NCBI RefSeq assembly: GCF_022818495.1
Contig: NZ_CP089291.1
Location: 2,249,501-2,313,500 of the forward strand
DNA length: 64,000 nt
Direction: 5' to 3'
Source of the DNA: Fodinisporobacter ferrooxydans
GTDB taxonomy: Bacteria > Bacillota > Bacilli > Tumebacillales > MYW30-H2
Every line of letters starts with the position of its first letter. The first letter of the stretch is position 1. Below, one piece after another: positions 39,589 to 63,203 of this stretch. The translations under genes and the position numbers were made by a program. The notes below the pieces were generated by a model. It saw only the letters and a list, made by a program, of their open reading frames with translations, did not search any database and had not been told where the DNA came from.

Positions 39589-39658
39589 TTATGATTTATA
39601 AACGCAGAATGAAACAAGTGAAAAACCTGCAATGTATCGAAAAGACTGGGGTGGTTTC

Positions 39659-44483: not shown

Positions 44484-44495
44484 GCGGTGAATCGG

Positions 44496-46440: not shown

Positions 46441-46456
46441 TGGCACGAATGTTGCA
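46441..46456 (+). promoter_or_regulatory. Sigma-54 (-24/-12) promoter of the divergent-LarA cluster
   Basis: TGGCAC-GAATG-TTGCA matches the sigma-54 consensus exactly and lies 69 bases before the ferredoxin start. It is the only strong promoter seen upstream of the co-directional genes from 46525 on. A RBS (GAGGGGAG, about 46505-46512) follows. Confidence 0.92.
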
Positions 46457-46524: not shown

Positions 46525-47184
46525 ATGCGTTTAATCAACATGAAAGCGGTTATTCTTGAGGACAAATGCACCGGTTGTAAAATTTGCGCGCAAGTGTGTC
46601 CGACATTGGCGATTACAATGGAACCCGTACCAGGAACAAAGGCGAAAAAATTAGCTGTTGTTCATGAGGATGATTGTACCGGATGCACAGCGTGTGAGCA
46701 GCGGTGTCCATTCGACGCAATTGAAATGGAATACTTACAAGAAAACCGTACGATCGGTGTAGATGTTGAACAATTTGATCGGGAAAAAATCAATCAAATC
46801 TGCTACGATGCACACTTTCATCCGGAACAGGTGGTATGCTACTGCACGGGAACGCGGGCGGAGGAAGTTGCAGCTTCGATTCTGCAGGGGGCGGATTCGC
46901 CGGATAAAATTTCCCGGGCAACCGGGTTGCGTACAGGATGTACGGTGGAATGCTTGCAGCCGGCCATTCGTCTGCTGAAAAGCGCCGGTATTGAATTGCA
47001 ATCACCGGAAGGCCGCTACCAGTGGTATGGAGCTACACCGACGATCTGGGATATTCCGGATGACGTGAAAGAGAAATATGCCAAACGCGGCTTTTACTTT
47101 GATGCAGATATTGAATTCATGGAAAGTATTCGCAATGCGCCAACTTCTTCTAAAGTATGTGCGGGAAAAGAGGGGGAGAAATAA
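46525..47184 (+). CDS. Two-cluster ferredoxin fused to a BFD-like [2Fe-2S] domain
   Basis: A 219-residue iron-sulfur protein. The N-terminal part has two [4Fe-4S] motifs, CTGCKICAQVCP (about residue 17) and CTGCTACEQRCP (about 52). The middle has a BFD-like segment, CYCTGTRAEEVAASI ... GLRTGCTVECLQPAIRLL (about 109-155), with the CxC and Cx4C pattern for a [2Fe-2S] cluster. A tail of about 60 residues is unassigned. It is an electron carrier, first gene behind the sigma-54 promoter; an internal ATG at 46540 is an alternative start. Its stop overlaps the next start (TAATG), pointing to a tight functional link with the divergent LarA homologue. Confidence 0.88.
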   Translation: MRLINMKAVILEDKCTGCKICAQVCPTLAITMEPVPGTKAKKLAVVHEDDCTGCTACEQRCPFDAIEMEYLQENRTIGVDVEQFDREKINQICYDAHFHPEQVVCYCTGTRAEEVAASILQGADSPDKISRATGLRTGCTVECLQPAIRLLKSAGIELQSPEGRYQWYGATPTIWDIPDDVKEKYAKRGFYFDADIEFMESIRNAPTSSKVCAGKEGEK

Positions 47185-48623
47185 TGCGTGCACCGATTCA
47201 ACCGATTGCGCCGCGTCCGTCGCGGTATGGAGTAGAACCAAGCCACGTAAAAAAGCGTTTTGTCGATTTGCCCGGGTTGACATCTGTCATGTTGGACGAA
47301 TTGTTTCCGGATACGCCGAATGTGATTTATCCAAGCACGCAAGGACTGCAAGCGATCCGTGAAGCTACGGAAGCGGCACTTAAGCATGTGGATTTTTCGA
47401 AAATTCAACCGCACCATACTGTGAACGTACTGGCGTCGCACCATGGATTTACGCTGCTCGGTGGCGAGCCATATGCAGAGGTCCTGCGAACGGTGTATGA
47501 CGTGGTAAAACGTCGCACAGGCGCCAAAGAAGTTCGACTGCGCGCCGGAGTGGGACTGCGGTTTCGGGAAACAGAAGAATATATCAAAAGGTTCAACCTG
47601 AAACAGCATTTTGATCGCGCTCTCGGAATGGCGCCCATTGATGAGGGGATACCGATCGCAACGGAAATTGGCACATTGTATGGTCTGAAGCGCACATACG
47701 ATGCGGATTGGATCATCCATGTGCACAATAGCGATGTCCGTGAAGTGCATTTTCATCGCCAGGTGGACCGGGCTGTCAAACCTTTCGGGATGTCCTATGC
47801 ACGGATTGAAACACGTTCCACCTATCATCAAAACCTCGGGCCGCGGGGTGCCAATTTTACGGCGAGGGCCATTTTTGAATCGCCGTTTGTACAGGGCAAA
47901 TTCATTGGCGCGGTATTTATGAACATGTCTCCAAGCGGTGTCATTAGCATTGAAGCGGATAATGACTTGTACAAGATTAACGACACGATCACACGGGATG
48001 GTTTGCGATATTACGGTAAAATGTTTCAACTATTAGGCAAAATCGATGATTGTATCGTAGGTTTGGATTTTCCGTGCCCGGTGCCTTATGTTTTTTCAGC
48101 GGGCGTCATTTATTGCAACTTTGTCGGTGCGAATACCGATTTATTCGACTTGGATGTGAAATTGCCCCCTTATACCTGGTACACGGAGGCGCTCTATGGA
48201 AAAGACGGCAAACCACTCGTGCCGGAGGTGCAGCCGGTCAATCCTGCCATTCGCATGGTGATACACAATTATGCATGGATCGGCTATCCGAGTGCGTTTT
48301 TTGCGCAACAATTGCCGACGGTAGTGGTTGGCAAAGAACAAGCGGATTTGTTCGAGCATGATCCGCAGAATTTGGAATATATGAAATACGCCATGATCTC
48401 TGACAATCTCGAAGATGCCATGAATTTCGCTTATAAAACAACAGGAACAGACAAAGTGATCGTCTTCGATGGCGCAGTAGGCGGAATCAATGTAAGCGAA
48501 TCGCTGGCAAAACATCTGTTAACGGTTGCTCCTGCTGTGAGCCGACAAGTAGAAGAAGAGTTGCTGCCAAAATGGATGAAGCAGCGTGGAATATCACCAA
48601 ATGGAATCTTGGTAAACGCATAA
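47184..48623 (+). CDS. Divergent LarA-superfamily protein, putative new NPN-dependent enzyme
   Basis: A 479-residue cytoplasmic protein without an obvious database-type name. I align it with LarA as follows. His189, Lys199 and His215 have exactly the spacing of LarA His174, Lys184 and His200 (x9 and x15), and the local text ARIETRSTYHQ matches AGIETILAFHN of the canonical LarA at 35696. GVGLRFRETEEY matches GTGTHRDQTEEEF but the acid/base His is lost. The C-terminal NLEDAMNFAYKTTGTDK matches the LarA C-terminal domain (TLDEAMEKAYAREG in the founder, from memory). The DxTRP substrate arginine is replaced by SHHGF. It is longer than LarA by about 55 residues. ATG 47184 overlaps the ferredoxin stop and follows AGGGGGAG. 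I infer an NPN enzyme with altered chemistry. Confidence 0.7.
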   Translation: MRAPIQPIAPRPSRYGVEPSHVKKRFVDLPGLTSVMLDELFPDTPNVIYPSTQGLQAIREATEAALKHVDFSKIQPHHTVNVLASHHGFTLLGGEPYAEVLRTVYDVVKRRTGAKEVRLRAGVGLRFRETEEYIKRFNLKQHFDRALGMAPIDEGIPIATEIGTLYGLKRTYDADWIIHVHNSDVREVHFHRQVDRAVKPFGMSYARIETRSTYHQNLGPRGANFTARAIFESPFVQGKFIGAVFMNMSPSGVISIEADNDLYKINDTITRDGLRYYGKMFQLLGKIDDCIVGLDFPCPVPYVFSAGVIYCNFVGANTDLFDLDVKLPPYTWYTEALYGKDGKPLVPEVQPVNPAIRMVIHNYAWIGYPSAFFAQQLPTVVVGKEQADLFEHDPQNLEYMKYAMISDNLEDAMNFAYKTTGTDKVIVFDGAVGGINVSESLAKHLLTVAPAVSRQVEEELLPKWMKQRGISPNGILVNA

Positions 48624-48638
48624 GAGGGAGTGGTGCAC

Positions 48639-49529
48639 ATGCCGGCTTTCAAAGTAGAGGATCGACAAAACGGTCAAATCATCATGGACATTCGGGATAC
48701 GTTGTTCTCTTCGCTTCATGATCGGATGTTCACTGCACAAGTGGCAGCAACTGATTATGGAGTATTGGCCGGTATGCGGCATGCGCTGATGTATCTGGAA
48801 GAACTGGACTGTGAGCTTGTCAGCCATCTCGATGACGGCACTTTGCTGCAACCGGGCGAGGTTGTTCTTACGTTTCGCGGTTCAGCGAAACATGTGGCGA
48901 TTGCGGAAGACCGGATATTGGGAGTGATGATGGCGCCATCCGGTTTTGCGACGCGCGCCCGCCAGTTGCAACTGCTTGCCGGGCAGGATTTGCGCGTGGT
49001 ATGCGGCGGTTGGAAGAAGCTTCCGCAGACGATGAAACCGACTCTCCATGCAGCTCTTGCTGCAGCAGGTGTTGGCATGCGAATGGTGGATGGCCCATTT
49101 GTTTATATCGATAAAAACTATGTTCGCATGTTCGGCGGGGTAGGAAAGGCGTTAGACGCAGCCAAGCGTTTTTTTCCGGATCATAAAGCGGTGATTCAGC
49201 TCCGCGGGGATCTTCAGCCGCTTGCAATCGAAGCCCGAGCTGCAGTTTACGGAAAAGCGGATGTCCTGATGGTGGATACCGGGCAGTTGGACGATCTTGA
49301 TGTCGTCCTTGACATCGTAGCCGAATGCAAAGCTCGCGACCGCTTGAAAATCGCTTTTGCCGGCGGTGTGAAAGAGGAGATGATGCTTTTGCTTCGAACT
49401 CGCGCCGTAGATTTGGTGGATGTGGGGGGCGCTGTGTTAAATGCTCCCCTGCTCGATATGCGGGTGGATGTCATGGTTGATCAGGGAACGCATACCAACA
49501 CAAGAAAGGCGGAGAACCATGGAGTATAG
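48639..49529 (+). CDS. NadC-like (quinolinate phosphoribosyltransferase-fold) protein
   Basis: A 296-residue protein with the overall plan of type II phosphoribosyltransferases of the NadC/ModD class: GVLAGMRHAL (about 41-50), DDGTLLQPGEVVLTFRG, then the barrel ending AFAGGVKEEMMLLLRTRAVDLVDVGGAVLNAPLLDMRVDV. The catalytic blocks are rewritten. TRKTxPG is replaced by CGGWKKLPQTMKPT (122-135), and the HRxGLxDxxLxKxNH block by MRMVDGPFVYIDKNY (147-161). It therefore is unlikely to be ordinary NadC. ATG 48639 is 8 bases after GGGAG; two GTG codons just upstream are alternatives. Being between a LarA homologue and a MoCF protein, it may handle a pyridine nucleotide or a related ring acid. Confidence 0.72.
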   Translation: MPAFKVEDRQNGQIIMDIRDTLFSSLHDRMFTAQVAATDYGVLAGMRHALMYLEELDCELVSHLDDGTLLQPGEVVLTFRGSAKHVAIAEDRILGVMMAPSGFATRARQLQLLAGQDLRVVCGGWKKLPQTMKPTLHAALAAAGVGMRMVDGPFVYIDKNYVRMFGGVGKALDAAKRFFPDHKAVIQLRGDLQPLAIEARAAVYGKADVLMVDTGQLDDLDVVLDIVAECKARDRLKIAFAGGVKEEMMLLLRTRAVDLVDVGGAVLNAPLLDMRVDVMVDQGTHTNTRKAENHGV

Positions 49530-50529
49530 TCTTTTAAATAAAACCGAATTGCGTTTGACCGATGTGTATCTGCTTGACTGTGATTTGTCAAAAATCGCCG
49601 CAACTGTAGCGAATGTGCTGAGACTGCCAAGAGAACGGGTATTTGTAATCGATGTGCGGGAAGATCATATCGCTTTGGATCTATTGGTTCAGTCGATGAC
49701 GGATGACCAATTTGTCGGGAAAAAACAGGAATTGATCGCAGCGGTCGGTTCGCTTCCGGGTGTAAAACTAGGACCGGATGTCGATATTCATTCGGCGGGA
49801 GTGCTCGGAATGATCGCCTTGTCGCCGATCGAGGGAAAACAGGTTGTTACAGTAAGCGAACGGATGGGCGATGAGATTCAAAGAAACATTCGGCGGCGTG
49901 TAAAAGTATTTCCGACAGGCTTTGAAGTTGCCAAAGGAATGATTGAGGATACGAACACTCCATATCTGGCAAAACGGCTGAAGGAGATTGGGTTTGCTGT
50001 GCAAACACATGCTCCGCTCGCGGATGATGTAGACGAAATCGCCGGTGCATTGCGGAATGCTCTCGACTCGGGTTTTGGCTTGATCCTTACTACGGGCGGA
50101 GTCGGCGCGGAAGATAAGGATTGCACAGTAGAAGCATTGGAAAAGGTGTGTCCGGATGCAGCGACTCCTTACATTGTTACGTTTGCAAAAGGTCATGGCA
50201 GACATGTAAAAGATGGGATTCGGATCGGAGTGGCGAAAGAGGGATTGAGCTATTTGGTCACACTGCCAGGTCCCCATGATGAAGTTCGGCTTTGCACAGA
50301 TATTTTACTGGATTTTATCAACCAAGACATAGTGCCGCCGCCCCATGTTTTAGCGGAGCAGCTGGCGGATTGTCTGCGGCAGCGATGGATGCAAACGGCG
50401 GGGGTTGGGGGTCATGACCATTCTCATATGCACCATCATCACCACAAACATGACAGTCATTCAAGCATGCACAGGCATGATGGAATGCAGGAAAAACAGG
50501 AATGGGTGTCTGAAAGGAGTTTGCTATGA
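49519..50529 (+). CDS. MoCF-domain (Mog/CinA-like) protein with His-rich metal-binding tail
   Basis: A 336-residue protein. The N-terminal 110 residues are unassigned. Residues about 125-275 form a MoCF/MogA-like nucleotide- or pterin-binding domain with TTGGVGAEDKDCTVEAL (191-207) and TLPGPHDEV (248-256). The C-terminus carries 12 histidines in 22 residues (299-320), a nickel-type metal sink. Mog/MoeA proteins activate molybdopterin for metal insertion. By analogy I suggest a role in delivering nickel or in handling the pincer nucleotide, but this is inference. ATG 49519 follows AGGCGGAGAA and overlaps the NadC-like gene by 11 nt. Confidence 0.75.
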   Translation: MEYSLLNKTELRLTDVYLLDCDLSKIAATVANVLRLPRERVFVIDVREDHIALDLLVQSMTDDQFVGKKQELIAAVGSLPGVKLGPDVDIHSAGVLGMIALSPIEGKQVVTVSERMGDEIQRNIRRRVKVFPTGFEVAKGMIEDTNTPYLAKRLKEIGFAVQTHAPLADDVDEIAGALRNALDSGFGLILTTGGVGAEDKDCTVEALEKVCPDAATPYIVTFAKGHGRHVKDGIRIGVAKEGLSYLVTLPGPHDEVRLCTDILLDFINQDIVPPPHVLAEQLADCLRQRWMQTAGVGGHDHSHMHHHHHKHDSHSSMHRHDGMQEKQEWVSERSLL

Positions 50530-51308
50530 AGCCTTTTATTGAACAAGCAGCGAAAGAGCTATGGGATGCGGAACGCAACAGACAACCGGTACATCCGATT
50601 TCCGAGACATATGCCGATATCACGATCGAAGATGCATATGCAATTCAACAACAAGTGAAGGAATGGAAACTGAATTCGGGAGCTCGCTTAATCGGCAGAA
50701 AAATTGGCTTGACTTCGTTGGCGATGCAACATGCGCTCAATGTCCATGAACCGGACTTTGGCTCCTTGTATGACAATATGCTGCTGCCTGAAGGAAGCAG
50801 CGTGCCATATGAACGCTTTTTGCAGCCGAAGATCGAAGCGGAATTAGCGTTTGTCATGAAAAAAGATTTGCAAGGCCCCGTACATTTTCTGGATGTTTTG
50901 CAAGCAACTGCGTATGTCGTCCCGGCGTTTGAAATCATCGACAGCCGGGTTCGCGATTGGAAAATCAATATAAAGGATACGGTTGCGGATAATGCTTCAA
51001 GCGGTGCACTGGTTCTGGGAAGCCGCAGTGTCCCGGTTGACGACTTGAATCTGCGCCTGATTGGACTTGTACTGGAATGCAACGGCCAGATTGTCGATAC
51101 GGCTGCCGGTGCTGCCGTACTCGGCCATCCGGCGGAAGCGGTGGCATGGCTTTGCAATAAACTGGCCGCTTTTGGAGAAGGGTTGAAGGCCGGCGATATC
51201 GTGTTGTCCGGGTCCTTTACGAAAGCGTATATCGCACAGCCGGGATATGTATTTCATGCACACTTTGACAGGATCGGTACCGTTCAGGTCGGTTTTGGGC
51301 ATAAATGA
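50526..51308 (+). CDS. 2-oxopent-4-enoate hydratase / 4-oxalocrotonate decarboxylase family enzyme
   Basis: A 260-residue member of the MhpD/DmpE/DmpH family, fumarylacetoacetase-like fold. It has [25 protein letters not shown] with metal-binding acids, [13 protein letters not shown] and [15 protein letters not shown], typical of the group. The hydratase makes 4-hydroxy-2-oxovalerate; the decarboxylase sister makes the dienol. Sequence alone does not separate them, but two lower-pathway genes follow directly, favouring the hydratase. It starts in the stop of the MoCF gene (ATGA). Confidence 0.9.
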
Positions 51309-51331
51309 AGAGATCACAGGAGGGAAACCAA

Positions 51332-52213
51332 TTGAAACGACTAAAAACAGCAATTATCGGTCCCGGTAATATCGGTACGGATTTACTATTGAAAGTTTTG
51401 CAATGTGAAGAACTGGAACTTTGCATGATGGTTGGGATCATTGCCGAATCCGATGGCCTGCGGATGGCAAGGGAACGTGGAGTGGAAACGTCTTCCGAAG
51501 GCATTGATGCGATTCTGAAACGCGGCGATATCGAGCTTGTCTTTGATTGTACGGGCGCGAAGCCACATGTAAAACATGCGCCTTTGTTAAAAGCAGCCGG
51601 CATCCAGGCAATTGATTTGACACCTGCGGCAGTAGGTCCGTATGTAGTGCCTTCTGTCAACATGAATGTCAACTTGGACAGCCCCAATATCAACCTGGTT
51701 ACTTGCGGCGGCCAAGCTACGATACCAATCGTTGCAAGAATTAATGAAGTAGCGAATGTAGAATATGCGGAAATTGTCGCTACCATCTCGAGCAAGTCGG
51801 CCGGACCTGGCACACGTCAAAATATTGATGAATTTACAGAAACCACTTCCCGTGCCATTGCACAAGTTGGCGGAGCAGATCGTGCAAAAGCGATTATTAT
51901 TTTAAATCCTGCCGAACCGCCGATCATGATGCGCAACACCGTGTATACGAAGGTCAAAAACCCGGATCAAGCAACGATTGAAACAGCGGTGGAAGATATT
52001 GTGAAAGAAGTCCAAACATATGTACCCGGATATCGCCTGAAAGTTCCGCCGATTGTCGATGGGGATAAGGTAACTGCCATTATTGAAGTCGAAGGTGCAG
52101 GCGCATATTTGCCAAAATACTCCGGAAACCTTGACATTATTACTGCAGCGGCTGTCGGTGTCGCCAGAAGAATCGCAGTACATCAAAATACAAAGGAGGT
52201 TACAGGAGTATGA
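51332..52213 (+). CDS. mhpF: Acetaldehyde dehydrogenase (acylating), DmpF/MhpF family
   Basis: A 293-residue NAD-dependent enzyme converting acetaldehyde and CoA to acetyl-CoA. It has the Rossmann start [14 protein letters not shown], the catalytic Cys in [15 protein letters not shown], and STKS-type downstream text [22 protein letters not shown] 51332 is 9 bases after GGAGGG and gives the normal length; an ATG at 51305 overlaps the hydratase stop. In known operons it forms a channelled complex with the aldolase encoded next, whose start overlaps its stop by 4 nt. Confidence 0.95.
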
Positions 52214-53235
52214 CACAGCAAAGAATAACAATCACAGATTCTACGCTTCGTGATGGAATGCATACTGTAAGTCACCAGTTTACGCCGAATGACATGGCGG
52301 AGATTGCAAGCGCCCTTGATCAAGCGGGTGTTGATATCATCGAAATCGGGCATGGAGACGGATTGGCTGGAGCATCGTACCAATATGGATTCAGCCAAGC
52401 GGCTGACGAAGACTATGTAAGAGCCGTTTGCAATGTGGTAAAACAGGCAAAAGTAGCCGTTTTATTATTACCCGGCATCGGTACGAAACGTGATTTGCAA
52501 ATCGCTGCCGATTTGGGCGCACGAGCTGCACGGATCGCAACACATGTGACAGAAGCGGATATTTCCGAACAACATATTAAAGTATCGAAAGACTTGGGGC
52601 TTTTTACGGTAGGGTTCTTAATGATGGCACATATGGAAGAGCCGAATAAACTCGTAGAGCAAGCTAAAAAGATGGAGAGTTACGGGGCTGATGTGGTGTA
52701 TGTGACGGATTCGGCCGGAGCGTTATTGCCGGATGGCGTTCGTGCGCGCGTTTCCGCATTGCGTGAAGCAGTATCGATTCCAGTAGGATTCCATGCACAC
52801 AATAACCTCGGTGTAGCTGTCGGAAATACGCTTGCAGCCCTGTCAGAAGGGGCCGGTTATGTGGATGGAAGTTTGCGAGGCATGGGTGCAGGTGCAGGAA
52901 ATGCGCAAACGGAAGTCATGGTCGCGGCGCTGCATAAAGCGGGTTTTCAAACAGGTACAGACTTGGCCAAATTGATTCATGCTGCGGAAGATGTTGTGGC
53001 ACCGAAAATGACTCGTCCGCAAATTATCGATAGCGTAGCATTGATTCTCGGTTATGCGGGCGTTTACAGCAGCTTCTTTCTACATGCGAAACGCGCGGCG
53101 GAACGCTTTGGCGTAGATCCCCTTGCAATTCTTGTCGAGCTTGGAAAACAGCGGATCGTAGGTGGACAAGAAGACCAGATTATCGATGTGGCGTATGAGT
53201 TAAGCAAAAAAGAACGAGTAGGCGCATTACTCTAA
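52210..53235 (+). CDS. mhpE: 4-hydroxy-2-oxovalerate aldolase, DmpG/MhpE family
   Basis: A 341-residue metal-dependent aldolase that cleaves 4-hydroxy-2-oxovalerate to pyruvate and acetaldehyde. It has [17 protein letters not shown] (Arg and Asp for metal and substrate), [26 protein letters not shown] and [18 protein letters not shown] (metal-binding His pair), followed by the dimerisation domain with [20 protein letters not shown]. It partners with the acylating dehydrogenase before it. The end products, pyruvate and acetyl-CoA, show that this cluster is catabolic. Confidence 0.96.
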
Positions 53236-53304
53236 AATCGATTGGGATGTCAGCAAGAAAAGTTAGTACGGTTCCAGTAAAAGGTTAAGCAGGGGGTGTC
53301 AGGA

Positions 53305-54117
53305 ATGTCAGATACACAGGGGAAATATGCCAAACTCAAGCAAATCTTAAAAGAGCTAGGCAGTGTCGTTGTCGGATTTTCCGGTGGTGTCGACAGTTCA
53401 TTTTTGTTGAAGGCAGCGATTGATACACTGGGGCGTGATGCAGTGCTTGCAGTAACTTCCAACGCGGAAACATATCCGGAACGGGAGCGGCTGGAAGCGA
53501 TCGAAATTGCAAAAGAAATTGGAAGTCAACACTTTTTAATAGAAACAAGTGAGCTTAACATACCGGGATATGCAGAAAATCCTACGAATCGCTGCTATTT
53601 TTGCAAGCAAGAATTATTTAGCCATTTAATTCCGCTTGCGAAAGAACGCGGATATAGCTCCGTAGTGTTTGGAGCGATTGCGGATGACCTGGGGGATCAT
53701 CGTCCAGGGCTGCAAGCTGCGATCGATCATGGTGTTCGAGCGCCACTTTTGGAAGCAGGATTGACAAAGCTGGAAATTCGCAAGTTGTCCCGCGAGCTGA
53801 GCTTGACAACCTGGGACAAACCGTCCTTCGCTTGTCTTTCTTCCCGTATTCCATACGGTGAGAAGATCACATTGGAAAAGTTGTCGATGGTGGATCAGGC
53901 CGAATCTTTTATCATGAATCTGGGGTTTCGACAAGTACGGGTGAGACAGCATGATAAAATGGCTCGAATTGAAGTTTCCGCAACGGATATTCCGAAACTC
54001 GCAGGCGTATCAGAAATAGTTGTCGAGAAGCTAAAAGATATCGGATATACCTATGTAACTATCGATTTGCAAGGGTACCGTTCCGGCAGCTTAAATGAAA
54101 CGTTATTCACTCAATAA
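53305..54117 (+). CDS. larE: Sacrificial sulfur transferase LarE, copy 2
   Basis: A 270-residue LarE with the PP-loop VVGFSGGVDSSFLLKAA, TSNAETYPERERLEAIEIAKEIG, RCYFCKQELFSHL, DDLGDHRPGLQAA and SFACLSSRIPYGEKITLEKL. As in copy 1 all three cysteines of the proposed [4Fe-4S] version are present. ATG 53305 lies 8 bases after AGGGGG. The two copies clearly share descent but are diverged. It is set between a lower-pathway aldolase and an MFS carrier, so NPN synthesis is built into this catabolic cluster. Confidence 0.93.
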   Translation: MSDTQGKYAKLKQILKELGSVVVGFSGGVDSSFLLKAAIDTLGRDAVLAVTSNAETYPERERLEAIEIAKEIGSQHFLIETSELNIPGYAENPTNRCYFCKQELFSHLIPLAKERGYSSVVFGAIADDLGDHRPGLQAAIDHGVRAPLLEAGLTKLEIRKLSRELSLTTWDKPSFACLSSRIPYGEKITLEKLSMVDQAESFIMNLGFRQVRVRQHDKMARIEVSATDIPKLAGVSEIVVEKLKDIGYTYVTIDLQGYRSGSLNETLFTQ

Positions 54118-54213
54118 TTTTTAGAATGTTTAGAAAATAATGGCCGCATAAGAGATGAAAACGATTACCTCTATAAGTTTTTAAAAAATATGAATTTGGC
54201 AGGAGGAGAATGC

Positions 54214-55557
54214 ATGTCAGTTGTTACTACAGCAACAAATCACCCACATGGTGAAAGTGTGAAAGGCCGTCAGATGGTTTCTGCTACTATTGCATCCGTT
54301 TTGGGGTGGTCGTTAGATTTATATGATCTATTTGTCCTTCTTTATGTCGCCCCCGTTTTAGGGCAAGTATTTTTCCCGAATAATGTTCCGACTCTATCAT
54401 TGGCTGCCGTTTATGCTTCCTTTGCCGTTACATTGCTCATGCGGCCGGTCGGTTCTGCTATATTTGGATCCTATGCAGACAAGCACGGCAGAAAGGGCGC
54501 GATGGTATTTGCGGTGGTTGGCGTAGGACTTTCCACAGCGTTGTTCGGCCTTTTGCCGACTGTCCAACAAATCGGAGTTGCAGCACCTGCTATTTTCTTG
54601 CTTTTGCGTTTGGTTCAAGGAATATTTGTCGGTGGTGTCGTCGCATCCACACATACCATTGGAACGGAATCCGTACCACCGAAATGGCGCGGATTGGTTT
54701 CCGGGCTGATCGGTGGAGGCGGAGCGGGATTCGGTTCATTGTTTGCTTCCATTATTTATTTTATCGTCTCATCGGCCTTCCCTGGCCATGCGTTTGCCGT
54801 ATGGGGTTGGAGATTCATGTTTTTTTCCGGCATTCTCAGTTCCATCCTTGGGTTGTTTGTTTTTAACTCGATCGAAGAATCTCCCTATTGGAAAGAACTC
54901 AAACACGCGCAGGAGAAAGCCGGCGCCAGTCAAGAGAAGACAGAAAAATCGCCTTTAAAAACGGTTTTATCCAGTAAATATTTTCCGGTAATTCTTGTCA
55001 ATCTCATGCTCGTCATTGGCGGTGGAACCGGCTACTACATTACATCCGGCTATCTTCCGACATTCCTGAAAGTAATCAATAAAACGCCGAGCAGCGCATC
55101 TTCCATGATCTTGATACTTGCAAGTTTTGCAGCAATTATTTCTGCTGTTGCAATCGGCTATTTCAGTGATCTGATCGGAAGGAAAAAAACGTTTATCATC
55201 ATTGGCATTGTGAACTGTATTTTGCTTCCCTTCTGCTACTTGGGGCTGGCGAAATCTGTTGCACTATCTTCCATTACGTTGTACGCAGTAGTTCTGGCAT
55301 TTCTTGGGAATGCAGGATATGCGCCGATATTGGTATTTTTAAATGAACGTTTTCCAACGACGATCCGTTCTGTGGGTACCGGATTATCCTGGAATATCGG
55401 ATTTGCCATCGGCGGCATGATGCCGACATTTGTATCGTTGGCGAGTCGCGGCGTCCAAAGCATCCCGTCAGTCCTCTCGTATTTTGCAGTCGCTGTATTC
55501 GTTTTGTATCTGATCGGCAGTTTTGTCATACCTGAAACAAAAGGGCAGTTTAAATAA
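54214..55557 (+). CDS. MFS carboxylate:proton symporter (MHS/SHS/AAHS-like)
   Basis: A 447-residue major facilitator with 12 predicted helices. It has LGWSLDLYDLFVLLYVAP in helix 1, the loop 2-3 motif GSYADKHGRKGAM, RLVQGIFVGGVVAST in helix 4 and YFSDLIGRKKT in loop 8-9. Families of this type import aromatic acids, sialate/lactate or dicarboxylates. ATG 54214 follows AGGAGGAG by 5 bases. It likely brings in the substrate of the cluster, whose chemical class (organic acid) is therefore hinted at. Confidence 0.87.
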   Translation: MSVVTTATNHPHGESVKGRQMVSATIASVLGWSLDLYDLFVLLYVAPVLGQVFFPNNVPTLSLAAVYASFAVTLLMRPVGSAIFGSYADKHGRKGAMVFAVVGVGLSTALFGLLPTVQQIGVAAPAIFLLLRLVQGIFVGGVVASTHTIGTESVPPKWRGLVSGLIGGGGAGFGSLFASIIYFIVSSAFPGHAFAVWGWRFMFFSGILSSILGLFVFNSIEESPYWKELKHAQEKAGASQEKTEKSPLKTVLSSKYFPVILVNLMLVIGGGTGYYITSGYLPTFLKVINKTPSSASSMILILASFAAIISAVAIGYFSDLIGRKKTFIIIGIVNCILLPFCYLGLAKSVALSSITLYAVVLAFLGNAGYAPILVFLNERFPTTIRSVGTGLSWNIGFAIGGMMPTFVSLASRGVQSIPSVLSYFAVAVFVLYLIGSFVIPETKGQFK

Positions 55558-55608: not shown

Positions 55609-57075
55609 ATGACAATTGTAACAAAGCTGCAAGTGCCTGTATATCGAAACTATATTGGCGGCCAGTGGGTGGATTCCAGCTCGAAGGAACAACTGGAATC
55701 CCGCAATCCGGCAACAGGTGAATTCATCAGTTATGCGCAAAAATCAACCGTTCAGGATGTGGAAGCGGCCATCGATTCTGTTTATGATGCGTTTCAGCAG
55801 AGTGACTGGGGGTATAATCCGAAACGCCGCTATGAAGCATTGCTCGGTTTGGCTCATAAAATGGAAGAAAATCTTGAGCATCTCGCCCGTGTCCTGACGA
55901 TGGAGCAAGGAAAAACGATTCGCGAATCCCGCATGGAAATCGCCGGCAGTATCGATACTTTAAAATACTTTGCCGGTGCAGCGCGTACGGTGTTTGGGCG
56001 TTCCATGCAATTAGAACCCAATAATTTTGGAATTATCGTAAAAGAGCCCATTGGCGTAGTAGGGATTATTTCACCTTGGAATTGGCCTGCACTTTTGATG
56101 GTTCGGGAATTGGCGCCTGCTTTAGCTGCCGGCAATGGCGTCATTGTAAAACCTGCCAGTCTGACGCCGGCCATTTCTGTTGAGATTTTTAAATTGATTG
56201 CCGCAGTCCCCGAGTTTGCGAAAGGAATTGTCAGTATTGTGACAGGTCCGGGACGTTCGATCGGAGCGGCGATGGGAAAAAGCAAAAAAATCGATATGAT
56301 CAGTTTTACGGGAGACACGTCAACAGGAAAATCGATCATTGAGCTATCGACAAGCAACATCAAAAAACTGGCATTGGAACTTGGCGGCAAATCGCCGAAC
56401 GTTGTATTTGCAGATGCCAATCTCGACAAGGCAGTACCCTTGATCGGCCGTTCCATTTTTATCTCGGCGGGACAAATTTGCATGGCTGGTTCACGGGTGC
56501 TTGTGCATGAATCGATTAAGGATGAAGTGGTTTCACGGTTAAAAGCGTATGCAGAACATCTGAATGTCGGCAATGGGATCCATGAAACGTCCGATATGGG
56601 TCCTGTCATCTCACAAAGTCAGCTCGACTTGATTTCTGAATACTGCGAGATTGGAAGAAAAGAAGGGACGATTATTACCGGCGGATACCGTTTGACCGGT
56701 GAGGAGTTCGATAAAGGTTTCTTTTTCGCACCGACGATTATCGATCATCTTGCGGCAAACTGTCGGGTTGTACAAGAAGAGATTTTCGGCCCTGTACTTG
56801 CTGTTCAAACATTTGCAAATGATGAAGAAGCAATTGCGTTGGCGAATGGAACAGACTTTGGCCTATCTGCCGGAGTATGGACGGCAGACTTGAATCGCGC
56901 CATGCGGATGTCGAAGGAAATAAAGGCAGGGACCGTTTGGATTAATACGTATAATAAAAACTTCCCGGAAGCGGAATTCGGCGGCTATAAACAAAGTGGT
57001 CTAGGGCGGACACGCGGTGTCGATGGATTGATGGAATACTGCGAAACCAAACATATCCATCTGGAACTCGAGTAA
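55609..57075 (+). CDS. NAD(P)-dependent aldehyde dehydrogenase
   Basis: A 488-residue ALDH superfamily enzyme. It has IISPWNWPALLMVRELAPALAAG (oxyanion Asn), SFTGDTSTGKSI, LELGGKSPNVVFADANLDKA (general base Glu), SAGQICMAGSRVLVHE (catalytic Cys) and EEIFGPVLAVQTF. Close relatives include betaine aldehyde, 2-hydroxymuconic semialdehyde and vanillin dehydrogenases, so substrate is open. A 2-hydroxymuconate-semialdehyde-like role would suit the downstream pathway genes. Its stop overlaps the earliest possible start of the next gene (TAATG). Confidence 0.93.
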   Translation: MTIVTKLQVPVYRNYIGGQWVDSSSKEQLESRNPATGEFISYAQKSTVQDVEAAIDSVYDAFQQSDWGYNPKRRYEALLGLAHKMEENLEHLARVLTMEQGKTIRESRMEIAGSIDTLKYFAGAARTVFGRSMQLEPNNFGIIVKEPIGVVGIISPWNWPALLMVRELAPALAAGNGVIVKPASLTPAISVEIFKLIAAVPEFAKGIVSIVTGPGRSIGAAMGKSKKIDMISFTGDTSTGKSIIELSTSNIKKLALELGGKSPNVVFADANLDKAVPLIGRSIFISAGQICMAGSRVLVHESIKDEVVSRLKAYAEHLNVGNGIHETSDMGPVISQSQLDLISEYCEIGRKEGTIITGGYRLTGEEFDKGFFFAPTIIDHLAANCRVVQEEIFGPVLAVQTFANDEEAIALANGTDFGLSAGVWTADLNRAMRMSKEIKAGTVWINTYNKNFPEAEFGGYKQSGLGRTRGVDGLMEYCETKHIHLELE

Positions 57076-57101
57076 TGAGGAAAACAATGGAGGACAAACA
57101 A

Positions 57102-58280
57102 ATGAAAAACAAACCTGGACTAATAGAAGAAACTGTGGAATTCTCCTTTCAGCTTCCTACATCTATCGAGTTTGGCTTTGGCAAAGCAAGCCGCTTGGGG
57201 GAGCGGATCCGTCAATTCGGAGCTGCCAACGTATTTTTTGTAACGGATCAGGGAGTGGAAGCTGTCGGATTGCTGAATGGAATCAAGGAATCCCTGCAAA
57301 CAGCAGGAATCGCGTTCGATACGTATACAGATGTGGAACCGGATCCAAGTATTGAGACAATCAATCGGGCAGCCCAGGCGCTTCAATCAAAATCGTATGA
57401 TTGTATCGTTGCGGTTGGCGGAGGAAGCCCGATTGATGTTGCAAAAGGGATTCGCGTCGTATCGGCAAATGGAGGGAGTATCGGACAATACGCCGGTGTC
57501 AATCGGGTACAAAAGGCTTCATCGGTACCTCTAATCGCCATTCCCACCACATCAGGAACGGGAAGTGAAGTAACCATATTCGGCGTTTACTCCGATTGGG
57601 AAAATAACGTCAAGATTACTGTTACAAGCCCTTATATGGCTGCAACGATCGCAATCGTCGATCCGCAATTGACGATGAGTTTGCCGGCAAAAATGACGGC
57701 GGCATCAGGGATCGATGCACTGGCACATGGCATTGAAACATTTTTTTCAACAATCGCTACGCCTGCCTCCGATGCGTTGGCTTTGCAAGCGATTGCCATT
57801 GTCAATGGGAATTTGCGTAATGTTGTTGAAAACGGTTCAGATGTACAAGCGCGAATTGGGATGTCCCAGGGGAGTTTGCTGGCGGGAATGGCGTTTAATA
57901 ATGGCTTTCTTGGTTTGACACATGCGATTGGAAGTGCTTTATCCGGACATTGTCATGTTCCACATGGTGTGGCAATTGGATTGCTTTTGCCGCATGTGAT
58001 CGAATTCAATCGCACGGTTCGCCCTGAAAAAGCTGCCAAGATTGCGCGTATTATGGGAATCAAGGGGAATGACGATGAATCATTGGCGCTGCAAGCCGCA
58101 GACGCGGCAGCACAACTTGTACAAGAGATCGGCCTGCCGACAAAGCTCAGGGATGTGGGAGTAACGGAAGATAAGCTTTCCGATGTTGCCAAAGATTCAT
58201 TCAAGAGCGGGATGATGCAGTTTAACCCGCGCCAACCGTCAGAAATGGAAGTCTTGGAGCTTTTGCAGCGGATCTATTAA
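57102..58280 (+). CDS. Iron-containing alcohol dehydrogenase
   Basis: A 392-residue group III (Fe-ADH) enzyme. It has the NAD-binding VAVGGGSPIDVAKGI, PTTSGTGSEVT and the metal site Asp/His residues in SGIDALAHGIETF and HAIGSALSGHCHVPHG. The ATG at 57102 has GGAGGA 7 bases before it; ATGs at 57075 and 57087 lie upstream, one overlapping the ALDH stop. With the ALDH it can oxidise an alcohol to an acid, or remove an aldehyde. Substrate unknown. Confidence 0.92.
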   Translation: MKNKPGLIEETVEFSFQLPTSIEFGFGKASRLGERIRQFGAANVFFVTDQGVEAVGLLNGIKESLQTAGIAFDTYTDVEPDPSIETINRAAQALQSKSYDCIVAVGGGSPIDVAKGIRVVSANGGSIGQYAGVNRVQKASSVPLIAIPTTSGTGSEVTIFGVYSDWENNVKITVTSPYMAATIAIVDPQLTMSLPAKMTAASGIDALAHGIETFFSTIATPASDALALQAIAIVNGNLRNVVENGSDVQARIGMSQGSLLAGMAFNNGFLGLTHAIGSALSGHCHVPHGVAIGLLLPHVIEFNRTVRPEKAAKIARIMGIKGNDDESLALQAADAAAQLVQEIGLPTKLRDVGVTEDKLSDVAKDSFKSGMMQFNPRQPSEMEVLELLQRIY

Positions 58281-58394
58281 CCGATTCGGAAACTTGAATA
58301 TAGCCCCTGACGCGAATGTACCCTTGGTCATGCGGAAATAAGCAGTACGAAAGAGGAATAAAGAAGGGCAGCTTAGATTGGAAGGGGAAGTTTG

Positions 58395-58952
58395 ATGAAG
58401 CTTGTAGTAGGAATATCTGGAGCAAGCGGAGCGATTTATGGTGTGCGTACCGTAGAGGTGCTTAGCAGACTAGGGGTAGAGGTACATCTTGTAGTAAGTG
58501 AAAATGCCCGAAAAACGATTTCCTATGAGACAGATTATGTGTTTGAAGACGTTTGTAAAATGGCAACGAAGGTCTATGACAACAAAGACTTGGGAGCGGC
58601 AATTTCGAGCGGATCCTTTCAAGTCAATGGAATGATTGTCGCACCTTGTTCCATAAAAACGTTAGCAGGGATTGCGAATAGTTTTAACAGTGAATTACTG
58701 ACACGGGCTGCAGATGTTCAGTTGAAAGAACGCAGAAAGTTGGTTTTGCTTGTACGTGAAACTCCATTGCACCAAGGGCATATCCAACACATGTTGACAG
58801 TAACGCAAATGGGAGGGATCATTTTGCCGCCGGTTCCTTCTTTTTATCATTTGCCGAAAACACTTGATGACATTGTCAATCAAAGCGTACAAAAAGCGTT
58901 AGACCAGTTTGCGATTGAAGCCAATTTATTTGAGCGTTGGAATGGCATGTGA
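58395..58952 (+). CDS. ubiX: Flavin prenyltransferase, UbiX/Pad1 family
   Basis: A 185-residue protein that prenylates FMN to give the prFMN cofactor of UbiD-type decarboxylases. It has VVGISGASGAIYGVRTVEVL (flavin phosphate loop), GSFQVNGMIVAPCSIKTLAGIANSF and LVLLVRETPLH, all canonical. The ATG follows a GGGGAAG. It directly precedes the UbiD gene, as in many aromatic acid (de)carboxylase operons. Confidence 0.94.
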   Translation: MKLVVGISGASGAIYGVRTVEVLSRLGVEVHLVVSENARKTISYETDYVFEDVCKMATKVYDNKDLGAAISSGSFQVNGMIVAPCSIKTLAGIANSFNSELLTRAADVQLKERRKLVLLVRETPLHQGHIQHMLTVTQMGGIILPPVPSFYHLPKTLDDIVNQSVQKALDQFAIEANLFERWNGM

Positions 58953-59028
58953 GCAAAAAGTAAAAGTATCAGAATGCATAATTGGATTGCCAGCATCAAT
59001 ACGTAAATGATTGTGGGAGGGATTTTCG

Positions 59029-60417
59029 ATGAAAGCCAGAACCTTTCGGACTTGGCTTGAACATTTGCAAGCAACAGGACGTTTGGCAGTCATAGACAAA
59101 AAAGTCGGTTTACAATATGAAATAGCCGCAATCGCAAAAAAATTGGATGGGCAAAAGGCAGCATATTTTACAAAAGTGGAAGATTACGAGATACCGGTTG
59201 TATCCGGAATCTGTTCGACTCGCAGCGATTTTGCGGAAGCTTTGGGAACAGATCCGTATGGAATGATTTCTAAATTCACAGAAGCAGTTACGTCCCCCAT
59301 GCCTTGCCAACTTGTAGAAAGACAGTCAGCTCCGGTAAAGGAAAATGTCGTTCTTGAAAATATTGATTTGTTACAAATGCTTCCAATCCCTTTCCACCAT
59401 GAAAAGGATTCGGGAAATTATATTACTGCCGGACTATTTATTGTCCGTGATCCGGTTACTCGCAAACAGAATGTTTCGATACATCGACTGCAGGTATCCG
59501 GGAAAGACAAATTGGGTGTTTTACTCCTGCCTCGTCATACATTCCACTTATACAAAAAGGCGGAAGAATTGGGGCAGTCTCTGGATTGTGCGATTGTGAT
59601 CGGGACTGACCCTGTGACTTTGCTGGCATCACAAGCCAGTACTCCATTCGGTGTGGATGAATTAGAAATCGCCAGTGCTTTGCGCGGCGAGCCGCTGGAA
59701 GTTGTCCGTTGTGAAACTGTCGATATTGACGTCCCGGCATTCGCGGAAATCGTGCTCGAAGGAAAAATTTTGCCACATGTCCGTGAGCCGGAGGGACCCT
59801 TTGGAGAGTTCCCAAAATATTATGGGCCGCGCAGTGAGAAAGAAGTCGTACAAATTACCGCAGTTACACATCGCACCAATCCAATTTTCTATACGATTGT
59901 TCCGGCTGGATATGAACATCTTTTGCTTGGCGGAATACCAAGGGAAGCGAGTCTTTTCGAAACTGTCCGACAAACTGTGCCAACGGTAAAAGCAGTCCAT
60001 ATGAGTCTTGGCGGCACGGCTCGTTATCATGCGATCGTGTCTATCAAGAAACGCAATGAAGGTGAAGGGAAAAACGTCATTTTGGCCGCATTGGCAAATA
60101 GTTTTGATATCAAACATGTAGTCGTTGTTGACGAAGACGTCGATATTTTCGATATGGAAGAAGTGGAATGGGCGATTGCCACTCGTTTTCAGGCAGAAAA
60201 AGATTTGATTGTCATACATGGTACACAAGGCTCAAAACTGGATCCTTCCACAAATAACGGAGTTGGATCGAAGATGGGATTGGATTGCACCGTGCCGATG
60301 GGCAGTGAACCCATGCGCTATCTGCGTATAAAAATACCGGGATTTGATCAATTGGATATCGAAACATATATTTCGAAAAAGTCAGAACTGCGAGAGACAC
60401 ACGTAGAGAACAGATAG
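59029..60417 (+). CDS. UbiD-family prenyl-FMN-dependent (de)carboxylase
   Basis: A 462-residue enzyme of the UbiD family, which reversibly decarboxylates aromatic, heteroaromatic or alpha,beta-unsaturated acids with prFMN. It has NVSIHRLQVSGKDKLGV (Arg of the catalytic E-R-E network), REPEGPFGEFPKYYG with the two conserved glutamates, and GSKLDPSTNNGVGSKMGLDCT near the C-terminus. ATG 59029 is 8 bases after GGGAGG. Members act on 4-hydroxybenzoate, vanillate, phenolic acids, furan-2,5-dicarboxylate and others. This one is probably the entry or an intermediate step of the cluster. Confidence 0.93.
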   Translation: MKARTFRTWLEHLQATGRLAVIDKKVGLQYEIAAIAKKLDGQKAAYFTKVEDYEIPVVSGICSTRSDFAEALGTDPYGMISKFTEAVTSPMPCQLVERQSAPVKENVVLENIDLLQMLPIPFHHEKDSGNYITAGLFIVRDPVTRKQNVSIHRLQVSGKDKLGVLLLPRHTFHLYKKAEELGQSLDCAIVIGTDPVTLLASQASTPFGVDELEIASALRGEPLEVVRCETVDIDVPAFAEIVLEGKILPHVREPEGPFGEFPKYYGPRSEKEVVQITAVTHRTNPIFYTIVPAGYEHLLLGGIPREASLFETVRQTVPTVKAVHMSLGGTARYHAIVSIKKRNEGEGKNVILAALANSFDIKHVVVVDEDVDIFDMEEVEWAIATRFQAEKDLIVIHGTQGSKLDPSTNNGVGSKMGLDCTVPMGSEPMRYLRIKIPGFDQLDIETYISKKSELRETHVENR

Positions 60418-60591: not shown

Positions 60592-62391
60592 ATGCGATTA
60601 TCTGAACTCGTGTGTACTCCCGTGTATCAAATCGACATCAATCAGGTGCAAGACGAGCCGGAAAAAATTATATCGGATATGCAAACGCTGTCGCTTTTCG
60701 AGATTCCAGTCTTGTCCCAAGGGCGATGGGCGGGAATTTTCCGTTTTTTGTCAAAAGATTCTGATACGAATGGTGAAAAACATGGGGCGTATGTCATGAA
60801 TGCTCCTTCTTTTTATGAGGATATGGAACTTAAAGATATTCCAATACCAAGGAACTGTACGATATTGGGCGTTGTCAATCGGCAAGAAGAGTTCACGGGT
60901 ATTGTCCATATTGCAGATATACAAACAATCTTCATAAAAGAGTACGAAACTACGCGAGAGCGCATTCGATTCCTTGATGCGATTATTGATAACACATACG
61001 ATGGGATTTTGATTGTGGATTCGTTGGGATATGTAACCCGCGTAAATCAGGGATTTTGCAGATTGACAGGGGTAAAAGAAGAGGATTTTGTTGGCGTTCA
61101 TGTAACGGACTTGGTTCAGAAAGGCACGTTTAAATTTCCTTCCGTTACCTGGAGTGCATTGCAGAAGCGGCGGGATATAACTGGCATACAAAAATACCCC
61201 ACTGGACATGAGCATCTTGTAAGCGCTGTACCGATTATCGACAATCAGGGAAAACTGCATGGCGCAGTGGCAAGTGTTCGAGACATGACGGAGTTGTCAA
61301 GATTGCGACAGGAGCTGGAAGCGGTACAGGATTTAAGCCAACATTACAAGTCTGAGTTGACAGATCTGAGAAAGCGTGTCTTGTTTGATCAAATCATTGC
61401 CGTCTCCGGGCAGATGCAAAAGGTTATGGATTTAGCCGGCCGCGTGGCAAATTTTGATTCAACAGTGTTAATATTAGGAGAGTCGGGAGTAGGGAAAGAA
61501 GTAATCGCGAATTTTATCCATAAATCAAGTTCCCGGGTACAAGGACCGTTTGTGAAAATTAACTGTGGAGCACTTCCGGAAGAATTGCTTGAGTCGGAAT
61601 TGTTTGGATATGAGGCGGGGGCGTTTACGGGTGCAAAAAAAGGTGGAAAGATCGGGTTGTTTCAAGCTGCCGAGGGTGGCGTGATCTTTCTCGATGAAAT
61701 CGGAGAAATGTCGCCTGCGTTGCAAGTGAAAGTTTTACGAGTGCTGCAAGAGCAAGAATTTACCCGTGTTGGCGGCATCTCTCCGATTCAGGTAAACTGT
61801 CGCGTCATTGCTGCCACTCATCGAGATTTAAAGGAACAAATAAAAAAAGGACAATTTCGTGAAGATTTGTTTTATCGTTTGTATGTTGTGCCGATTCATA
61901 TCCCGCCATTACGGGAAAGGCAAGAAGATATTCCGGCGTTGCTGCAATATTTTTTAAATAAATATAACCAGAAATACGGAACGCAGAAAACGTTGCAGCC
62001 TGAAGTCATACAAATTCTTAAAAATTATTCCTGGCACGGAAACGTTCGTCAGTTATCCAATCTTGTTGAACGGATGATCGTAACAATACCTGATTCCTAC
62101 ATTCAGCAAATGCATTTGCCTGAAGATTATATACAGGACATTTCAGCGGCAGATCATTCGGTACATTCTGAACGCCAGGCAACAAATACGGCGGCTTCCA
62201 ATCCCGAGCCAACAATAAGCGAAAGGGAACCGAAGGAAAACATGAACGCATTCGGCGCAATGGAACGCGATTTGTTGATTCGGACGCTTACGCAACATGG
62301 TTCCGTTCGTAAAGCAGGACAAGCATTGGGAGTTTCACATACCACGATCATAAAGAAAATGAGAAAATATGGAATTGAACGGAATCGTTAA
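60592..62391 (+). CDS. Sigma-54-dependent PAS-AAA+-Fis activator
   Basis: A 599-residue enhancer-binding protein. Residues 1-115 look like a pair of CBS-type units (ITxxxIP and GIVHIADIQ elements), 122-232 a PAS domain (DNTYDGILIVDSLGYVTRVN), 262-500 the AAA+ domain with Walker A GESGVGKE (296-303), intact GAFTGA at 343-348, Walker B VIFLDEIGEM and REDLFYRLYVV. A Fis-type HTH ends the protein (SVRKAGQALGVSHTTIIKKM). It is the best candidate to activate the sigma-54 promoters at 46441 and 39573. It starts after GGGGGGAATC; the 174 bases upstream hold no strong promoter that I could see. Confidence 0.94.
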   Translation: MRLSELVCTPVYQIDINQVQDEPEKIISDMQTLSLFEIPVLSQGRWAGIFRFLSKDSDTNGEKHGAYVMNAPSFYEDMELKDIPIPRNCTILGVVNRQEEFTGIVHIADIQTIFIKEYETTRERIRFLDAIIDNTYDGILIVDSLGYVTRVNQGFCRLTGVKEEDFVGVHVTDLVQKGTFKFPSVTWSALQKRRDITGIQKYPTGHEHLVSAVPIIDNQGKLHGAVASVRDMTELSRLRQELEAVQDLSQHYKSELTDLRKRVLFDQIIAVSGQMQKVMDLAGRVANFDSTVLILGESGVGKEVIANFIHKSSSRVQGPFVKINCGALPEELLESELFGYEAGAFTGAKKGGKIGLFQAAEGGVIFLDEIGEMSPALQVKVLRVLQEQEFTRVGGISPIQVNCRVIAATHRDLKEQIKKGQFREDLFYRLYVVPIHIPPLRERQEDIPALLQYFLNKYNQKYGTQKTLQPEVIQILKNYSWHGNVRQLSNLVERMIVTIPDSYIQQMHLPEDYIQDISAADHSVHSERQATNTAASNPEPTISEREPKENMNAFGAMERDLLIRTLTQHGSVRKAGQALGVSHTTIIKKMRKYGIERNR

Positions 62392-62453: not shown

Positions 62454-63203
62454 ATGGATATAAAAGACATTTTGAACCGTTTCCAAAACGGGCAACTTTC
62501 CATTGAACAAGCAGAGACGGAAATTCACGGTTTCGAAGATATTGGATTTAGTAAAATCGATTATGCAAGAGAATCGCGCACGGGGCATCCGGAAGTCATA
62601 TTTGGGCTCAATAAGACACCGGAACAAGTGCAAATCATTTTTGAACGCTTATATAAAAAACATGGGAAAGTTATGGTTACAAGAGCAACAGAACAGATGG
62701 CGGACCTGGTAAAAAAAATAGCGCCGGAAGCAACATATGACCACATGTCCCGCCTGCTTACGGCAGGCAGCAGTGTAGTTCGTTTTCCCGGTACTGTTGC
62801 CGTTGTGTCTGCCGGAACTGCTGATATGCCTGTTGCAGAAGAGGCGGCACAAGTGGCCGAATGGATGGGCAGCGAAGTTGATCGAATCTATGATGTCGGT
62901 GTTGCGGGCATTGATCGGCTTTTGGCGAACCGCGAGCGAATTCAGAACGCTACAATAATCATTGTCGTAGCAGGCATGGAAGGTGCTCTTGCCAGTGTCG
63001 TGGGTGGGCTTGTTCGTCATCCTGTAATTGCAGTGCCGACAAGTGTTGGATATGGCGCCCACTTTTTTGGCATGACACCGTTACTCTCCATGTTGTCCTC
63101 ATGTGCATCCGGCATAACGGTAGTGAACATCGATAACGGTTTTGGCGCGGCAGTTGCGGCATCGATGATTCAACAAACGATTTTGGAGGTGTTGAACCGA
63201 TGA
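62454..63203 (+). CDS. larB: NPN cofactor biosynthesis carboxylase LarB
   Basis: LarB carboxylates nicotinic acid adenine dinucleotide at C5 and cleaves its phosphoanhydride, giving the pyridinium-3,5-biscarboxylate mononucleotide that LarE thiolates. The 249-residue protein has DYARESRTGHPEVIFGLNKT, the PurE-like C-terminal domain with VVSAGTADMPVAEEAA and VVAGMEGALASVVGGLV, and the conserved cysteine in SSCASGITVVNIDNGFGAA. It is the only larB in the window, so it presumably serves both LarA homologues. It starts after GGGGGAATC and overlaps larC by 4 nt. Confidence 0.95.
   Translation: MDIKDILNRFQNGQLSIEQAETEIHGFEDIGFSKIDYARESRTGHPEVIFGLNKTPEQVQIIFERLYKKHGKVMVTRATEQMADLVKKIAPEATYDHMSRLLTAGSSVVRFPGTVAVVSAGTADMPVAEEAAQVAEWMGSEVDRIYDVGVAGIDRLLANRERIQNATIIIVVAGMEGALASVVGGLVRHPVIAVPTSVGYGAHFFGMTPLLSMLSSCASGITVVNIDNGFGAAVAASMIQQTILEVLNR

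Follow-up and report, generated by a model that had tools for sequence, protein, structure and literature searches.

A MoCF-domain protein with a histidine-rich tail accompanies a divergent LarA-like protein in a putative furan catabolism operon of Bacillota

We analysed a window of 64,000 nucleotides from Fodinisporobacter ferrooxydans (positions below are those of this whole stretch) and found that it encodes a MoCF-domain protein with a histidine-rich tail, hereafter MoCF-His, whose orthologues occur in every sampled Bacillota genome that encodes a divergent LarA-like protein, LarAd. We tentatively propose that MoCF-His is a maturation or loading factor for LarAd, and that LarAd is a ferredoxin-linked enzyme of a furan pathway that uses the nickel-pincer cofactor (NPN). 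More broadly, we lean towards accepting that MoCF-His handles a cofactor in one way or another.

MoCF-His and its operon

The MoCF-His gene opens with an ATG at 49519 and its stop codon ends at 50529 on the forward strand, giving a protein of 336 amino acids. It overlaps the upstream NadC-like gene by 11 nt at its 5' end, and its stop overlaps the start of the next gene as ATGA; it is therefore tightly coupled within the operon, and it is a genuine gene. The operon and the parts of the protein are as follows.

46441..46456, + strand: sigma-54 -24/-12 exact consensus, TGGCACGAATGTTGCA, upstream of the operon
46525..47184, + strand: ferredoxin with a 4Fe-4S dicluster and a BFD-type [2Fe-2S] domain; adjoins LarAd in the loci examined
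47184..48623, + strand: LarAd, a probable LarA-fold protein of divergent sequence; 479 aa when translated from the ATG at 47184, whereas the called ORF begins at 47157
48630..49529, + strand: NadC-like protein, type II phosphoribosyltransferase fold; constant partner of MoCF-His
49519..50529, + strand: MoCF-His, 336 aa, from PF00994, predicted structure and orthologues
49543..49794, + strand: N-terminal domain of MoCF-His (aa 9-92), beta-alpha-beta-beta-alpha-beta in the model
49894..50343, + strand: MoCF domain (aa 126-275), from PF00994 and structural matches
50404..50526, + strand: disordered C-terminal tail (aa 296-336), from the AlphaFold model and orthologues
50526..51308, + strand: 2-oxopent-4-enoate hydratase family protein (MhpD/HpaH-like; NCBIfam)
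51305..52213, + strand: acetaldehyde dehydrogenase (acylating), over NCBIfam cut-off
52210..53235, + strand: 4-hydroxy-2-oxovalerate aldolase, over NCBIfam cut-off
53296..54117, + strand: LarE, second copy in the window, over NCBIfam cut-off
54190..55557, + strand: MFS transporter (Pfam)
55609..57075, + strand: aldehyde dehydrogenase
57075..58280, + strand: iron-type alcohol dehydrogenase
58392..58952, + strand: UbiX-family flavin prenyltransferase (NCBIfam)
59011..60417, + strand: UbiD-family decarboxylase, closest to PtHmfF (PDB 6h6v)
60592..62391, + strand: sigma-54-dependent activator (PAS, AAA+, HTH)
62454..63203, + strand: LarB, over NCBIfam cut-off
63200..64000, + strand: LarC1, carrying a long HHD repeat; its frame runs on past the end of the window, and LarC2 follows in another frame

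PF00994 matches residues 130-267 of MoCF-His (E 9.7e-23, 80.9 bits against a curated cut-off of 26.6), and a search for further Pfam domains in the protein returned none. We modelled the protein with AlphaFold from 15 orthologues (mean pLDDT 82); comparison of residues 126-275 with the structures of Mog, Cnx1G and MoaB gave Z scores of 13-15, up to 15.3. By score and fold, MoCF-His is a member of the MoCF superfamily, as had been claimed in an earlier note on this DNA, which read a Mog/CinA-like protein from the same frame. The positions G193-G194, G196, D201, E205 and P250-G251-P252 are kept in every orthologue aligned there, as is D169 in all aligned orthologues, and D169 and D201 align with conserved aspartates of the gephyrin G domain. 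The N-terminal part of about 125 residues is a new domain; its segment 9-92 has no Pfam match and, judged by eye from the model, may have a ferredoxin/ACT-like arrangement.

MogA, Cnx1G and the gephyrin G domain, which are molybdopterin adenylyltransferases, share the fold of MoCF-His over about 135 residues (Z 13-15), and MoCF-His keeps the Mog-type TGG-G-D-T-E motif with the acidic pair that precedes it. Identity to these proteins is nevertheless only 22-26%, and every NCBIfam cut-off for molybdenum cofactor (Moco) proteins lies above its scores (MoaB 26.7 against 222; MogA 24.2 against 158), which excludes it from the MogA, MoaB and MoeA equivalogs. Unlike Mog, MoCF-His has the extra N-terminal domain, the histidine tail and an invariant RH-K-G-R segment (aa 228-235) for which we noted no Mog counterpart, and its gene is linked to LarAd and not to Moco genes. 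A match of the MoCF profile to the gephyrin E domain reflects the common MoCF domain only. The best Foldseek match is the CinA-like protein Ta0487 (3kbq), and the CinA/COG1058 family shares a 'G-I-D-T-N' domain start with MoCF-His and is thematically close in its pyridine-nucleotide chemistry; MoCF-His scores only 33-52 bits against the cut-offs of 243-379 for this family, however, and CinA itself is ruled out by a score of 32.8 against the full-length cut-off of 243 and by the lack of an amidohydrolase domain.

The tail, GGHDHSHMHHHHHKHDSHSSMHRHD, falls in a region predicted by the model to be disordered (residues 296-336) and holds exactly 12 histidines, at 50413-50478, the number given in the earlier note. 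Histidine makes up 12 of 43 tail residues, against 1.9% in the protein core. Orthologue tails contain at least one histidine in 37 of 38 cases, the lone exception (L091) being a truncated frame. The window's protein and its closest relatives (L009-L012) carry 5-12 tail histidines, and the other orthologues mostly 1-4 in tails of 3-20 residues; with the close group set aside, 79 of 398 tail residues are histidine (20%, against 1.9% in the core). Although tails are 20-38% histidine across orthologues, as against 1.9% in the core, their length and histidine count vary widely, many ending in only 'HxH' or 'KH', so that 12 is an extreme. A His-enriched C-terminus is a conserved property of these orthologues and tail length is not; the feature that the earlier note had singled out is thus kept in the family, though mostly in short form, and the refutation that the note had foreseen for a tail not conserved among orthologues does not apply. 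A chance or strain-specific tail is rejected by the 37 of 38 orthologues, and the variation fits a metal-binding end of varying capacity.

Several further observations concern the operon and its surroundings. The NadC-like protein scores 85 bits against the NCBIfam cut-off of 198 for NadC (quinolinate phosphoribosyltransferase) and was rejected as such; it keeps several phosphate-side positions, has WKK in place of NadC's RK, and is without the canonical lysine of 'IKxNH'. LarC1, with its very long (HHD)n repeat, and LarC2 lie in different frames (63200-64000, on to about 64072; G000:C1:2312709-2314072), the arrangement seen in LarC genes that are expressed by frameshifting. The exact sigma-54 consensus occurs only twice in the 64 kb, just upstream of a lactate permease gene (39573-39588) and of the LarAd operon (46441-46456). 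The permease gene belongs to a canonical lar cluster at 33661-41224 (glycerate kinase, LarE, LarA, NicO nickel transporter, LarC, lactate permease), in which LarA exceeds the NCBIfam lactate racemase cut-off and LarC is on the opposite strand. A three-gene operon at 41719-45584, by eye a GerA/GerC/GerB-like spore germination receptor, lies just upstream of the furan operon. Four further, distant PF09861 LarA homologues (L005-L008) are encoded elsewhere in the same genome, of which L005 follows a uronate-isomerase-like ORF, judged by that ORF's sequence start.

LarAd and its constant partners

LarAd escapes the usual family searches. Searched at E 10, none of eleven members matched any Pfam family, PF09861 and the Lar_N / LarA_C models among them, nor was there any NCBIfam match, the LarA equivalog models included; phmmer found nothing in the PDB, a HMMER profile found chance matches only, and Foldseek used alone on the LarAd model returned nothing significant. 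A profile alignment (hhalign) to LarA is collinear over about 150 columns with a marginal E of 0.035, a level that 1-2 of 100 shuffles of the columns also reached. In this alignment H174, K184 and H200 of LarA pair with H189, K199 and H215 of LarAd, which are invariant in 34 aligned LarAd proteins. The LarA residues K184 and H200 are NPN contacts, and H174 is a catalytic residue (PMC7583248). The spacing H-x9-K-x15-H is present in 35 of 35 LarAd and 8 of 8 LarA proteins, and in only 4 of some 520 other ORFs longer than 250 aa (about 1%). The AlphaFold model of LarAd is poor (pLDDT 59), yet among 1000 chains re-aligned to it with VIA-align, LarA (8ezf) came first and was the only match spanning both domains, the others covering one Rossmann-like part; its Z of 6.4 over 261 residues, with a model of pLDDT 59, is below the level that stands alone.

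Fold match and spacing together point to LarAd as a relative of LarA, and we consider it probable that LarAd is a LarA-fold NPN protein with different chemistry. LarA residues D72, R75 and H108 are not kept, their places in the marginal alignment being taken by H86, F89 and a G-V-G-L-R-F segment. Thus LarAd resembles the LarA family in the H174/K184/H200 spacing, in its best structural match and in having Lar biosynthesis genes alongside, and differs from it in the missing PF09861 match, in the changed positions and in its constant ferredoxin, NadC-like and MoCF partners. The LarA literature allows for other hydride-mediated reactions and for single-histidine members (PMC7583248; PMC12611868), and a 2020 survey of 354 LarA homologues makes no mention of ferredoxin, UbiD or molybdopterin (PMC7583248).

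To assess how general the arrangement is, we drew a sample of 398 genomes from the phylum Bacillota, 27 of which encode LarAd (one additional weak match, in G067, is a metallopeptidase-type ORF unrelated to LarA, and a search of plasmids for LarAd gave no match). An orthologue of MoCF-His is present in 29 genomes, comprising 27 of 27 with LarAd and 2 of 371 without (Fisher p about 7e-40, phylogeny not accounted for). Of the two exceptions, G379 is only 84% complete, and in G049 a stop interrupts the MoCF frame; the G049 locus (L085, G049:C55), in which a NadC-like gene stands beside the broken frame, looks like a decaying cluster in a genome where LarB, LarC and LarE were not found. The NadC-like protein occurs in 30 genomes, including all 27 with LarAd (Fisher p about 7e-39, again with phylogeny not accounted for).

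The genes are clustered as well as co-occurring. MoCF and LarAd genes share a strand at 30 of 31 loci and are no more than 3.5 kb apart at 29 of 31, MoCF adjoins the NadC-like gene in 31 of 36, and at about 30 loci MoCF stands beside the NadC-like gene and near ferredoxin and LarAd. Distance matrices of the four proteins are correlated (rho 0.70-0.72, permutation p 0.001). The earlier note had paired MoCF-His with a divergent LarA homologue from a single operon; the homologue is supported by fold and spacing despite the lack of a family match, and the pairing recurs across genomes.

Of the 27 LarAd genomes, 26 encode LarC (15 of 30 controls), 26 encode LarB (13 of 30 controls) and all have LarE over cut-off, with at least one lar biosynthesis gene inside the fetched stretch at 16 of 33 LarAd loci. 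MoaC is found in 27 of 27 LarAd genomes against 32 of 50 controls (p about 1e-4). The module accompanies NPN synthesis, and also Moco synthesis. At one further locus (L087, in G091), a distant NadC-like gene (26% identity) sits beside LarB and LarE without LarAd or MoCF, an arrangement that suggests a wider link of the NadC-like family with NPN synthesis.

A candidate reductive furan pathway

The closest characterised relative of the operon's UbiD is PtHmfF (6h6v, 553 bits; the next distinct UbiD enzyme scores 220), and the operon's protein is by this comparison HmfF-like. PtHmfF is a furandicarboxylate decarboxylase (PMC8988006). UbiD of HmfF grade is present in 9 of the 27 LarAd genomes, in seven of them on the same contig near the cluster; a furan substrate is less certain in the remainder, about two thirds. 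MhpD, aldolase and acetaldehyde dehydrogenase genes, at least MhpD, are found at 29 of 33 LarAd loci, and the Alicyclobacillus loci L012 and L013 have no MhpD-aldolase genes in the stretches examined and keep MoCF, LarAd and NadC-like genes. Other recurrent neighbours are an IclR regulator (27 loci), a BenE-type transporter (18), an M24 (Xaa-Pro/creatinase-type) peptidase-family gene (17, including L015 at 15215-16390) and an aldehyde:ferredoxin oxidoreductase (AFOR; 7).

From the HmfF-like UbiD together with genes for processing 2-hydroxypentadienoate, we read the operon as a candidate furan-degrading unit in which the ring would be opened reductively with the help of NPN and ferredoxin. Alcohol and aldehyde dehydrogenases would oxidise HMF or furfural-type compounds to acids, and HmfF/UbiX would decarboxylate furandicarboxylate to 2-furoate. 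Adding 2[H] to 2-furoate (C5H4O3) gives C5H6O3, which is the formula of the MhpD substrate 2-hydroxypenta-2,4-dienoate; from this stoichiometry and the enzyme families we infer that a reductive C5-O cleavage would join the upper and lower halves of the pathway. LarAd, presumably with NPN as its cofactor and reduced by the adjacent ferredoxin, would open the C5-O bond of 2-furoate, possibly through 2,5-dihydrofuroate as the reduced intermediate and a subsequent vinylogous elimination, and MhpD, aldolase and acetaldehyde dehydrogenase would then yield pyruvate and acetyl-CoA.

This scheme departs from the known route. Aerobic bacteria open the furan ring via furoyl-CoA hydroxylation, and the HmfABCDE 'Trudgill' pathway has in common with the operon HmfF/UbiX and convergence on 2-furoate (PMC12064950, PMC6604932). 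No gene for a furoyl-CoA synthetase or dehydrogenase was recognised in the operon, however, and its lower genes would lead to pyruvate and acetyl-CoA and not to 2-oxoglutarate. As to operon context, the earlier note was right about the link to LarA and overlooked the constant NadC-like and ferredoxin partners and the furan genes. Taken as a whole, ferredoxin, LarAd, NadC-like protein and MoCF-His with LarB, LarC and LarE could form a system for NPN-dependent reductive furan opening that needs a MoCF-type factor to handle or modify NPN, a composite proposal that we hold somewhat more loosely than our main one.

Possible roles of MoCF-His

The earlier note had suggested a metal-insertion or cofactor-activation factor specific to the LarA homologue. 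The tie to LarAd is supported (27 of 27 against 2 of 371 genomes), whereas a simple nickel-insertion step is not. LarC is the known CTP-dependent nickel inserter of NPN; since 26 of 27 LarAd genomes have it and the operon itself encodes it, MoCF-His is no simple replacement for it, and a plain LarC substitute was rejected. The presence of LarC counts against an evident need for another nickel factor. The two proteins share an operon and a His-rich, nickel-type segment, but no sequence relation between them was seen, and, both being present, their roles are not interchangeable. MoCF also follows LarAd and the NadC-like protein and not the lower pathway, as L012 and L013 keep it without the MhpD-aldolase genes.

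Among the roles considered, we favour for MoCF-His that of a factor dedicated to maturation or loading, one that would bind nickel along with NPN or its precursor and act with the NadC-like protein. NPN itself would come from LarB, LarE and LarC. The ligand of the MoCF domain would be NPN or a pyridine-nucleotide precursor, which it might adenylylate or de-adenylylate; the tail would hold nickel; and MoCF-His and the NadC-like protein together would alter or protect the cofactor or deliver it to LarAd.

An unlikely alternative is that LarAd does not use plain NPN and depends on a variant of the cofactor made by the NadC-like protein and MoCF-His, such as another pyridine mononucleotide or a dinucleotide formed by adenylylation of NPN. 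Pyridine acids are the substrates of type II phosphoribosyltransferase folds, the NadC-like protein combines retained phosphate-side positions with the altered WKK and missing lysine described above, MoCF domains include enzymes of nucleotide adenylyl transfer and hydrolysis (Mog, CinA, FAD synthase), and the two genes are inseparable. The standard LarB/LarC/LarE set is present, however, so plain NPN is made, and we know of no modified NPN.

We judge it improbable that MoCF-His instead belongs to Mo/W cofactor metabolism and supplies an MPT-type cofactor to a Mo/W enzyme of the pathway such as a furfural-oxidising AFOR. The Mog/MoeA-type domain with its conserved acidic residues and the enrichment of MoaC would agree with this, and because MoaC is present in all LarAd genomes we dropped the argument that missing Moco genes exclude such a role. 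Nonetheless, AFOR is found at only 7 loci and MoCF at every locus with a complete stretch, the genes that recur beside the clusters include none recognised as a Moco gene, and MoaC of F. ferrooxydans itself lies about 1.65 Mb away. Moco is moreover common without this protein (32 of 50 controls have MoaC and 0 have MoCF-His), and the N-terminal domain and histidine tail are absent from known Mog and MoeA. Least probable of all is a catabolic enzyme or structural subunit of a furoate-converting complex with the tail as a metal-storage appendage: the gene lies among, and is co-transcribed with, pathway genes, but we know of no catabolic enzyme with a MoCF domain, and the retention of MoCF at L012 and L013 ties it to LarAd.

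We thus retain the maturation or loading role as our working proposal. Our literature search found no paper joining NPN with furan and none joining NPN with MoCF, in agreement with the earlier note, which knew of no previous link between MoCF and nickel-pincer biology; the domains are already known, and the module, its core enzyme family and the inferred chemistry are not described in the literature searched. To our knowledge, only LarB, LarC and LarE serve the NPN cofactor, and NPN enzymes are so far known only as isomerases of 2-hydroxy acids. If our reading is true, NPN biology as now known would lack a part, namely MoCF-His and the NadC-like protein with their link to an undescribed protein of LarA type. 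Furfural and HMF are inhibitors that arise from biomass hydrolysis. A 2018 review stated that no anaerobic pathway for their degradation was then known and that one was wanted (PMC6604932). About 7% of the Bacillota genomes sampled have the module, several culturable strains among them; a furan pathway linked to ferredoxin would explain the breakdown of furfural and HMF by anaerobes. It would also give the nickel-pincer cofactor its first reaction with a net redox change, and furoate a route that does without oxygen.
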